Assembly: GCA_027019175.1 (NCBI GenBank)
Contig: JALUXB010000043.1
Location: 1-53,447 of the forward strand
DNA: 53,447 nucleotides
Reading direction: 5' to 3'
DNA from: Sulfurovum sp.
GTDB taxonomy: Bacteria > Campylobacterota > Campylobacteria > Campylobacterales > Sulfurovaceae
Part shown: positions 24,042 through 27,400 of the stretch, piece after piece
How the letters are laid out: each line of letters begins with the position of its first letter
How positions within the stretch are numbered: the stretch's first letter is position 1
Program-made: the position numbers and the translations under genes
Notes under the pieces: generated by a model
Database searches by the model: none
The model's input: the letters and a program-made list of their open reading frames with translations, nothing else
Told to the model about the DNA's origin: nothing

Positions 24042-24071
24042 ATAGTCATAATGACCATTAAGGACTCTATT

Positions 24072-24362
24072 ATGGTAGTAAATGCAGCAGATGCAAAAGC
24101 CAAATTCTCAAGCCTGCTGGCACTTGCCGGACTCGGAAAAGAAGAAGTGATTATTTCAAAACGTAACAAGCCGACAGCTGTGCTTATTTCGTATGAAATA
24201 TTTTTGAAAATGAAAAAAAGAGATGAAGCAGTGATAGATAAAACTGTGTGGGAGAGCTTGCCCTCATCAGTGAACCAGTTTATCGGCATTGTGTCTGAAG
24301 ATGAGATAGACGATGAATACAGAAGAAGCAGGGAAGCATACCTTAAAGAGAAATATCTGTGA
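24072..24362 (+). CDS. Phd/YefM-type antitoxin
   Basis: A 96-aa protein beginning MVVNAADAKAKFSSLLALA, with EEVIISKRNKPTAVLISYE, the DNA-binding fold of the Phd/YefM family, and an acidic, flexible C-terminus that would neutralise the toxin. The ATG at 24072 has AAGGA 7 nt upstream and is preferred to the in-frame ATG at 24051. It overlaps the PIN gene by four bases (GTGA). Confidence 0.85.
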   Translation: MVVNAADAKAKFSSLLALAGLGKEEVIISKRNKPTAVLISYEIFLKMKKRDEAVIDKTVWESLPSSVNQFIGIVSEDEIDDEYRRSREAYLKEKYL

Positions 24363-24772
24363 AAATTTTTGTAGATACCAATATCTTTATTGATATATTG
24401 TTAGATAGAGAGCCTTTTTCAGAATCTTCTGCTCTTATATACAAGTTATGTGAAAACAGTTTGGTTGAAGGATATATTGCACCTATTACTGTAAATAACA
24501 TTTACTATATTTGCAGGAAAGCACATAATATTGCGGCAATCAAAGCTTTTTTACATAAAATATCCAAAGATTTTACGATAACTCCCATGGACAGCTTAAG
24601 CATAGAAAAAGCGAACAAGTTGTCTACGAGTGATTATGAAGATGCTTTACAGTATGCAATGGCACTTCAAATTGGAGCTGAATATCTTGTAACACGCAAT
24701 ACCAAAGATTTCAAACACATGACGCACATAAAGGTTTGTACGCCCGAAATGTTTATTTCTGAGATAGGATAA
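24359..24772 (+). CDS. PIN-domain toxin, VapC-like
   Basis: A 137-aa PIN nuclease: VDTNIFIDILLDREPF gives the first acidic residues (D6 and following), DYEDALQYAMA the middle acidic patch and LVTRNTKDFKHM the C-terminal metal-binding end. In known modules such toxins cut RNA, often initiator tRNA or 23S rRNA; the target here is unknown. It starts with GTG inside the antitoxin stop. The module is visibly more AT-rich than its neighbours, suggesting acquisition by transfer. Confidence 0.85.
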   Translation: MKIFVDTNIFIDILLDREPFSESSALIYKLCENSLVEGYIAPITVNNIYYICRKAHNIAAIKAFLHKISKDFTITPMDSLSIEKANKLSTSDYEDALQYAMALQIGAEYLVTRNTKDFKHMTHIKVCTPEMFISEIG

Positions 24773-24782
24773 TATAAAGGTA

Positions 24783-25604
24783 CTAACTGGGATTAACCAA
24801 AAAGTAAGCCCCTACTGCAAATGCGATAGCCGCAACACTCCGTTTGATAACCACACCGATGTTGTTACCCACCTGACAGGAGGAGCACTGTTTGTACTTT
24901 TTTGATTCGTAAAAGGCATAGACAAAGAAGCCTGCCATCAGCAGCAATACAGACGGGAAGGCGATCTTGTCGAACATATAGATGTTCTCTACAGTCGTTT
25001 TTTCAAACTTGAAAAGTGGTGTCAGTAGACTCAATCCCATGAAGAAGAGAATCTTGTCGGCAAAAGAAACGAAGTAGTCTTTGCGTGAAAAAGTAGGGCA
25101 GACATCACCCACTTGCGGGACAAGTCCTTTGCCTTCCAACGCATCGAGAATGCGCTGTTTTTGTTTTTTGTCAATGCGGTCAAGCATGGTGCCGCCAAGT
25201 GAGAAGTCCATCATTTGCTCGAACATTGCAGCGAAGTGTCTGTCATTGTCGGCATCCATGTAGCAGGTGTTGCCGTTACGATCTTCATAGACAATTTTGA
25301 GTTTTTCATGGCGGGGAACGATGGCGGTTACATCCGGGTAGTAACTGCTGCGCTCTTCAGCCTCAAAGGGTTTGCTTTTTTGCAGAATACGCGGATTGGC
25401 AAATTCAATGTATTCACCATCTTTCTTGACAATAAACATATTGAAAGGGTGGGCGACCTGCATAGCGCTGAGTGCATCGAGACCGTGATGATCCATCGTC
25501 TCTTTGATGTCGTCGAAGAGTCTGCCTACACTTTCATCGAAGCCGCGTACATCGCCACACGCCAAAATGCGGTCATCGGGGTAGATTACCAGTTCTTTGA
25601 TCAT
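24783..25604 (-). CDS. Membrane protein with a degenerate peptide deformylase domain
   Basis: A 273-aa protein. Residues ~1-150 follow the peptide deformylase plan: GLDALSAMQV keeps the Gln (Q49) of GxGLAAxQ, FANPRIL matches the INPxI strand, and VPRHEKLKIVYEDRNGN matches the central strands, ending LDRI. But the EGCLS motif is replaced by E84-R-S-S-Y, so the metal-binding cysteine is absent, and HEXXH is replaced by Q130-M-M-D-F. It should therefore be catalytically dead as a deformylase. The C-terminal ~90 residues hold two or three membrane helices and a CSSC pair. Function unknown; binding of peptide ends is a guess. Confidence 0.7.
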   Translation of the reverse strand: MIKELVIYPDDRILACGDVRGFDESVGRLFDDIKETMDHHGLDALSAMQVAHPFNMFIVKKDGEYIEFANPRILQKSKPFEAEERSSYYPDVTAIVPRHEKLKIVYEDRNGNTCYMDADNDRHFAAMFEQMMDFSLGGTMLDRIDKKQKQRILDALEGKGLVPQVGDVCPTFSRKDYFVSFADKILFFMGLSLLTPLFKFEKTTVENIYMFDKIAFPSVLLLMAGFFVYAFYESKKYKQCSSCQVGNNIGVVIKRSVAAIAFAVGAYFLVNPS

Positions 25605-25680: not shown

Positions 25681-25698
25681 TGCAGGCCGAAGCCTGCA
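25681..25698 (-). terminator. UUCG-loop hairpin after the sulfide:quinone reductase operon
   Basis: Read on the minus strand, 7-bp arms TGCAGGC/GCCTGCA close on a TTCG loop, a very stable tetraloop with the C-G closing pair. It lies 8 nt after the 57-aa ORF. No T-run follows, so it may protect the mRNA end. Confidence 0.55.
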
Positions 25699-25705
25699 AG
25701 AGGGG

Positions 25706-25879
25706 TTAGTGGCTTTTTTGAACCACAATGATCATTTTAATGTTGATGATGATGAAGCGAATGAACTGCCAAATCAGGCATGTTCTCATGAATTTTACAA
25801 AAGGTGTCGGTACCATTGCTTCAAAGCTTTGTTCATACGCTTTAATGTTCTTTTCAATTGAGTGGTCTACACTTGCCAT
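25706..25879 (-). CDS. 57-aa small protein downstream of sulfide:quinone reductase
   Basis: A 57-codon ORF (MASVDHSIEKNIKAYEQSFEA... ending ...IIVVQKSH) with the excellent site GTAAGGAG 6 nt before its ATG. It lies 51 nt downstream of sulfide:quinone reductase on the same strand. The N-terminal half is charged; the C-terminal half (about residues 36-53) is hydrophobic with WQFIRFIII, a possible amphipathic or membrane-associated helix. Placement suggests co-transcription and a membrane anchor or accessory for the enzyme; I know no family for it. Confidence 0.65.
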   Translation of the reverse strand: MASVDHSIEKNIKAYEQSFEAMVPTPFVKFMRTCLIWQFIRFIIINIKMIIVVQKSH

Positions 25880-25930: not shown

Positions 25931-27400
25931 TTATTCAGGAATCAGTGTCCAGCCCGGCTTGAGCTTCGCTTTATAGATGAACAGGTGGTGCAGGATATGT
26001 TTGATCCAGTGTCCTGCAAGACCAATCTCACCGAAGGTATAGTCAAGGTCACGACCGATTCCGGGATACTTCTCGAAGTCAGGTACAACAGGGTAGACAG
26101 TCAGTGCTGCGGCAGTACCGTCAGTCAGACCTTTACCTGCAGATGCCACACATGCTGCACCCATTTCTGCCATAGAAGCTTCATGAATATGTGCGTTTTC
26201 ACCATTTTTGATCATATCGACAATAGAGTGCGCAACCGCTTTACCGATGATACCGGAAGGCATACCTGTTCTTGGCGGTGTCGGGGTGATCGGTGTACCG
26301 TTTGGCGACTGCATTGGCTTGGAGATAGGGTGTGGCGGTGCGAATGCAATACCTGCCGCAAAGATGTTTTTGTACTCAGGGTTCTGATAGGTTCTTGGCC
26401 AGTCACTTGCTTTCCACTCTTCATACGGTTTTGCAGTATAGTCGGCATCGACTTTAAGGAATCCGTTTGGTGCAAAGATCTTGTCTGTCATATCTTCGCC
26501 GTTCTTGTCATAGGCTTTGAGACCCACGCCGGCAAATGGTGGAATAAGCATTGCAAAATCGAATTCCTCTTCACCTGTAGAACCGTCAAGCAGTTCGTAG
26601 TGTACTTTTCCCTCTTCGACTTTGTTGACATGGGCACCGACCATCCAGTCGACACCACGCTCAACAAAGAGTGATTCTGCAAAGAGTTTGGAGCTTGCCG
26701 CATACATACCACGCTTAATGTGAAGACCTCCGATTCCGAAGTCGCCAATGAATGACTCGTTGGAGATCCATTTGATCTCGAGGTTGTCTCTAACGCCTGC
26801 TTTGCGTGCTTCATGCTCGATGTTGAAGATGTACTCGAATGCTGCACCCTGACATGTACACAGACCGTGACCTGTACCAACGAGTACTTTCTGTTTTTCG
26901 GTTTTTGCTTTTTCAAAGAGTTGCTGCAGTTCAAGGTTTGCATGGATCGCATGGTCTGCCGTACAGACAGAAACGGTGTGGTCGCCAAGCTGTCCTTTGC
27001 CGTTGCCAAGACCCGGTGTTGCATCGAAGTTCAGTTTCGGACCGGTAGCATTGATAAGATAGTCGTATGTGATCTCTTCAGTTTGACCCTCTTTGCCCTG
27101 ACCGGTATATTCGATGGTGATATACGGTGTGTCACTGTCTGCTTTTCCATCGGGATGAATGGAAACCGCTTTTGCCTGTCGGTAATCGATACCTGCTTTT
27201 TCATAAACTGGTGCGAGAGGGAATACAACATCCTCTTTCTTCATCTGTCCAACCCCTACCCAAATATTGGATGGGATCCAGTTCCATTGTGCATTTGGAG
27301 TTACTACCACTACTTCATGGTCGCTTCCAAGCCACTTTTTTGCAAATGTTGCGGCAGTGTGTCCGGAGACGCCACCACCCATTACTACTAATCGTGCCAT
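25931..27400 (-). CDS. sqr: Sulfide:quinone oxidoreductase family flavoprotein
   Basis: A 489-aa FAD enzyme that would oxidise sulfide and pass electrons to quinone at the membrane surface. It has the FAD-binding ARLVVMGGGVSGHTAA at the start, the NWIPSNIWVGVG segment of the SQR/flavocytochrome c family, and cysteines in SVCTADHA, GLCTCQGAAFE and AACVASAGKG that could take part in the sulfur redox centre. I cannot assign the SQR type (I-VI) by eye. The long frame from 27448 starts without a ribosome-binding site; the ATG at 27400 follows AAGGAAGG and begins right at the FAD motif. Confidence 0.82.
   Translation of the reverse strand: MARLVVMGGGVSGHTAATFAKKWLGSDHEVVVVTPNAQWNWIPSNIWVGVGQMKKEDVVFPLAPVYEKAGIDYRQAKAVSIHPDGKADSDTPYITIEYTGQGKEGQTEEITYDYLINATGPKLNFDATPGLGNGKGQLGDHTVSVCTADHAIHANLELQQLFEKAKTEKQKVLVGTGHGLCTCQGAAFEYIFNIEHEARKAGVRDNLEIKWISNESFIGDFGIGGLHIKRGMYAASSKLFAESLFVERGVDWMVGAHVNKVEEGKVHYELLDGSTGEEEFDFAMLIPPFAGVGLKAYDKNGEDMTDKIFAPNGFLKVDADYTAKPYEEWKASDWPRTYQNPEYKNIFAAGIAFAPPHPISKPMQSPNGTPITPTPPRTGMPSGIIGKAVAHSIVDMIKNGENAHIHEASMAEMGAACVASAGKGLTDGTAAALTVYPVVPDFEKYPGIGRDLDYTFGEIGLAGHWIKHILHHLFIYKAKLKPGWTLIPE

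Follow-up and report, generated by a model that had tools for sequence, protein, structure and literature searches.

We have found that the 273-residue protein encoded within the window (the whole stretch of Sulfurovum sp. DNA analyzed here, 53,447 nucleotides of contig JALUXB010000043.1) is a paralogue of peptide deformylase that has lost the catalytic site. Its deformylase-like domain is followed by three predicted membrane helices and an invariant cysteine pair, its gene lies behind that of sulfide:quinone reductase (SQR) in most of the loci compared, and the protein probably serves sulfide oxidation as a helper or partner (Table 1). In bacteria abundant at vents and seeps, the oxidation of sulfide begins with SQR, and a conserved accessory protein and a microprotein in its operon would render the membrane assembly of the enzyme testable. 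The protein also shows clearly how an essential housekeeping enzyme can become a pseudoenzyme of the membrane. The database name "peptide deformylase" is probably wrong for it, and this public label on such genes can mislead counts of deformylases.

Table 1. Features of the SQR and pseudo-deformylase locus, in window coordinates.
Feature	Positions	Strand	Basis
SQR, 489 aa, probably type IV	25931..27400	-	best PDB match Aquifex SQR 3hyv, E 2.4e-45
Unannotated microprotein, 57 aa, between SQR and pseudo-deformylase	25706..25879	-	translation
RNA hairpin TGCAGGC-TTCG-GCCTGCA	25681..25698	-	after microprotein stop, no T run
Membrane pseudo-deformylase, 273 aa	24783..25604	-	ORF; PF01327 E 1e-20; 85 distinct homologues; dN/dS about 0.04
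Deformylase-fold domain, residues 1-157	25134..25604	-	AlphaFold pLDDT mostly >90; Foldseek 1xen E 1.2e-13; VIA-align 2ew5
S86 at the position of the metal-binding Cys	25347..25349	-	column T/S/D in 84/85 homologues, C in 1/85
QMMDF (130-134) at the position of HExxH	25203..25217	-	alignment of 85 homologues
C169, immediately N-terminal of membrane helix 1	25098..25100	-	Cys in 80/85 homologues
Membrane helix 1, about residues 179-197	25014..25070	-	hydropathy; AlphaFold helix 175-192
Membrane helix 2, about residues 214-232	24909..24965	-	hydropathy; AlphaFold helix 202-236
C240-S-S-C243 and Q244, basic loop between helices 2 and 3	24876..24887	-	invariant in 85/85 and in the 77-row alignment
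Membrane helix 3, about residues 251-269	24798..24854	-	hydropathy; AlphaFold helix 242-269

A deformylase fold without the active site

The first-pass annotation of this DNA recognized the plan of peptide deformylase in the first 150 residues or so, and both sequence and structure comparisons agree with that assignment. The Pfam family PF01327 (Pep_deformylase) covers residues 3-149 (E 1e-20, 74.4 bits against a curated cut-off of 22.8), the deformylase segments GLDALSAMQ, NPRIL and LDRI can all be aligned, and phmmer matches the protein to E. coli deformylase with E 8e-11; the match to TIGR00079 (E 1.4e-10, 41 bits) falls far below the NCBIfam equivalog cut-off of 103.95. The AlphaFold model, calculated from an alignment of 77 family members (mean pLDDT 91.7), displays the deformylase fold: the 50 best Foldseek matches are all deformylases (1xen, E 1.2e-13; 2ew7, E 8.6e-14), and VIA-align superposes the model on H. 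pylori deformylase 2ew5 with Z 25.3 and an rmsd of 1.5 over 157 residues. The pTM of the model is 0.62, so that the placing of the domain relative to the tail is less certain. The protein is thus a member of PF01327 by sequence and a deformylase by fold, a likeness to the canonical enzymes (E. coli Def, 1xen; H. pylori Def, 2ew5) that extends over residues 1-165 with Z about 25 and 24-28% identity. It includes the structural residues N70, E84, R98 and D133, which are invariant despite the loss of the metal ligands.

What separates the protein from PF01327 enzymes is the absence of the metal ligands and the catalytic Glu, together with the addition of three membrane helices and a CxxC loop. Alignment with the genome's own def shows that Cys90, His132, Glu133 and His136 (E. 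coli numbering) are replaced by S86, Q130, M131 and F134, confirming the initial observation that the metal-binding Cys is gone and HExxH replaced. Motif II reads EERSS where deformylase has EGCLS, and motif III reads EQMMDF where the genome's own def has QHEIDH; neither has the form found in an active enzyme. This loss extends across the 85 distinct homologues: the column of the first His holds R or Q in 83 sequences and H in 2, while the catalytic Glu and the last (third-ligand) His are found in none. Cys survives only in row L034 and His only in rows L064 and L085, so each sequence retains at most one of the four residues, and neither the complete active site nor the set of three ligands is found in any of the 85. 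The residues at the replaced positions vary by subclade, with RKxDY in most and QMMDF in that of the window. In motif I, the glutamine (Q49) is kept in 79/85, and the glycine is Ala in 60/85.

On the evidence of the ligand columns, we reject the reading as an active second deformylase. A separate, intact def is present in the same genome (contig C12; EGCLS, HEIDH), indicating that housekeeping deformylation is independent of the pseudo-deformylase.

An old family under purifying selection

Long-form homologues, amounting to the 85 distinct sequences above, occur in the same genus and in several Campylobacterota families of the same order, the named members being Sulfurovum and Sulfurovum mangrovi. 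In the phylogenetic tree, 43 sampled pseudo-deformylases are separated from 20 canonical deformylases with support of 100/100. Compared with close relatives, the gene as a whole has a dN/dS ratio of about 0.03-0.04, with similar values for domain and tail. The family is therefore old and conserved, forms one clade, and is under strong purifying selection. Chance is excluded as an explanation, because 85 distinct homologues share both the ligand loss and the tail at a dN/dS of about 0.04; the same low ratio, together with the conservation, rules out a pseudogene. A conserved loss under purifying selection, with an intact def kept in the genome from which the window comes, is the pattern of a pseudoenzyme with a role of its own.

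A scan of species genomes returned close relatives as the sole matches, and a scan of plasmids returned a full-length match in Sulfurovum mangrovi only. Several genomes (G019, G258, G206, G237 and G248) have one internal stop within the pseudo-deformylase gene. Two long-form copies per genome are found in G254, G202, G093, G153, G355, G410 and G447; where both copies were fetched (G202, G093 and G410), one is linked to SQR and the other is not.

The membrane tail and its cysteines

The proposed membrane tether and CSSC pair were borne out: three helices are predicted, with the CSSC between the second and the third (Table 1). The tail is present in all 85 homologues, so that its possession and the loss of the metal ligands are conserved jointly. 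C169 is found in 51/51 copies adjacent to SQR and in 9/12 others, and N247 and the CxxC are likewise kept in all 51 of the SQR-linked copies. The mean net charge of the CSSC loop is +2.5, compared with about -0.5 for the other loop between helices; by the positive-inside rule, this places the loop and the deformylase-like domain probably on the cytoplasmic side of the membrane.

Modelled alone, the tail has a pLDDT of 90.6, and a Foldseek search with this model gave no match at E <= 0.001, which does not in itself prove a new fold. We also considered membership in PF12669 (FeoB_associated), a family of Cys-rich membrane proteins that likewise have a membrane helix followed by basic residues and then Cys. 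The match is weak and partial: 37 of 75 pseudo-deformylase tails match weakly, with a best E of 1e-4, about 26 residues are covered, and the window's own match (E 0.05) does not pass the cut-off. We read it as a likeness of composition, not as membership.

Linkage to sulfide:quinone reductase

The nearest long gene upstream of the pseudo-deformylase, on the same strand, is SQR. The first-pass annotation had placed the gene beside the SQR operon; the shared strand and the adjacency stand, but the description is too weak, since by position the pseudo-deformylase is the third gene of the operon, behind the microprotein. The same arrangement, with SQR directly upstream on the same strand, recurs in 51 of the 63 loci with fetched neighbourhoods and spans several families, while the other 12 loci are unlinked to SQR, several of them lying in a conserved housekeeping neighbourhood. 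The plasmid of S. mangrovi (NZ_CP087125.1, 395 kb) carries the whole module beside rpsI and rplM (L169, 5001-5816). Its annotation lists a FAD-dependent oxidoreductase, a hypothetical protein and a "peptide deformylase" split over two genes, in that order, thus confirming the gene order independently and giving an example of the misnaming.

The co-occurrence of the two genes is strongly one-sided. The pseudo-deformylase is found in 122 of 399 genomes of the order, and 119 of these 122 also have this SQR, whereas 77 of the 196 genomes with it have no pseudo-deformylase (Fisher p 4e-44 over the 399 genomes, uncorrected for shared ancestry). The three that have a pseudo-deformylase and not this SQR are G031, G235 and G330, two of which are only 80% and 57% complete. 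This one-way dependence indicates that the protein is an accessory to SQR, and its linkage to one particular SQR, in loci and in genomes alike, points to a specific partner. A second SQR locus of genome G080 (L132) holds an SQR copy 72% identical, a microprotein with a divergent C-terminus and no pseudo-deformylase, which suggests that the accessory accompanies a single lineage of SQR.

The SQR of the window is probably of type IV; its nearest PDB relative, from Aquifex, we take to be of type I. A review (PMC4584964) treats type I and type IV as sister groups and finds type IV in every Sulfurimonas sequenced, which makes type IV the likely assignment here. Type IV SQR of Sulfurimonas and Sulfurovum, the probable identity of the neighbouring enzyme, is well known, and the accessible parts of PMC4584964 and PMC10045233 mention neither an accessory protein nor a microprotein.

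Proposed function and alternatives

How might a dead deformylase serve SQR? We put at about even the chance that it faces the cytoplasm from the membrane and acts as a partner or assembly factor of the enzyme. In sulfur-oxidising Campylobacterota, a deformylase gene would have been copied, losing its metal site and gaining three membrane helices and a cysteine pair, and the resulting gene would have been placed behind that of SQR, so that a dead paralogue was recruited to the SQR operon. Anchored by its three helices, the deformylase-like domain would lie on the cytoplasmic face and bind newly made SQR, or the microprotein, at or near the N-terminus, keeping the bound protein at the membrane during insertion or stabilisation of the flavoprotein. 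On the same membrane face, C169 and the CxxC loop would provide a site, whether redox, metal or structural, on which this role depends.

The linkage, the co-occurrence and the cysteines kept in every linked copy speak for a partnership with SQR, as do the purifying selection on domain and tail, the invariant structural residues, the fitting topology and the intact def. Against it stand the 77 genomes in which SQR does without the protein, the 12 loci away from SQR, a few of which lack C169, and the pTM of the model. Assembly is one of several roles that the operon position allows. A bolder version, which we regard as rather doubtful, is that SQR, the microprotein and the dead deformylase constitute an undescribed three-protein membrane module, in which the deformylase would recognize the N-terminus of SQR and place this signal-less flavoprotein on the membrane, with the cysteine site on the same face.

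In the best rival to a partnership with SQR, the cysteines do the work. C169 and the CxxC would take up electrons or sulfane sulfur from reactions linked to SQR, or else act as a sensor of sulfide or polysulfide, with the domain serving only as a docking platform. The complete invariance of CxxCQ among the homologues, the near invariance of C169 and the position of the gene behind a sulfide-oxidising enzyme speak for this proposal, to which we attach a good deal less than even probability. The general view is that SQR acts at the periplasmic face, whereas the charge of the CxxC loop puts it in the cytoplasm, and the tail shows no known sulfur-carrier or thioredoxin-like fold in the Foldseek search at the threshold given above.

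That the protein is a passenger, sharing the operon while doing some other membrane job, is unlikely. The unlinked loci, some of them in a conserved housekeeping neighbourhood, are what such an explanation would draw on; yet the genomes with unlinked copies usually still have SQR, and the linkage persists through deeply diverged families. The suggestion that came with the original annotation, that the protein is tethered to the membrane and binds N-terminal (formyl-Met) peptides of nascent or membrane proteins in general, agrees with the retained fold and with Q49 of motif I, but we think it slightly more improbable still, as the motif I glycine is mostly replaced by Ala. Moreover, the distribution of the protein tracks one SQR lineage, and most of the genomes sampled lack it, which a general role does not predict. 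That the protein is still an enzyme, a deformylase or another hydrolase with a different site, is highly improbable: a single ligand is left in a few rows, and activity is noted for some type 3 deformylases whose motifs are altered (PMC12690207), but the catalytic Glu and last His are gone throughout, and the alternation of QMMDF and RKxDY between subclades means that no alternative conserved site exists there.

S. aureus and S. pneumoniae have type 3 accessory deformylases that, like the present protein, represent a second copy with altered motifs, regarded as inactive, next to a working enzyme. The accessible text of PMC12690207 mentions neither a membrane tail nor a link to SQR for these copies, and in the pseudo-deformylase the motif loss is complete. 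In the same accessible text, a 2025 survey of accessory deformylases, the words "transmembrane" and "Campylobacter" do not occur and no membrane form is described. Our search of the open literature found nothing linking a deformylase to SQR or to a membrane form.

Microprotein, hairpin and flanking genes

The microprotein that separates the two larger genes has relatives of 48-68 residues sharing the pattern RTCxIWQFIRFxxINxKM, and no Pfam or NCBIfam family matches it above cut-off. Across Campylobacterota it follows SQR directly in nearly all loci examined, with a pseudo-deformylase nearby or absent, and could possibly be a small subunit of SQR.

A perfect G+C-rich hairpin lies 3-15 nt 3' of the microprotein stop in 31 of 51 loci, compared with 2.3% of shuffled sequences, and its stem sequences differ between species. 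An intrinsic terminator between the microprotein and the pseudo-deformylase was considered and rejected, as no T run stands behind the hairpin. The hairpin may protect the sqr-microprotein message at its 3' end and reduce the expression of the pseudo-deformylase.

On the opposite strand, two small genes (24051-24772, +) end next to the pseudo-deformylase; by eye, the first resembles a Phd/RelB-type antitoxin and the second a PIN-domain toxin.
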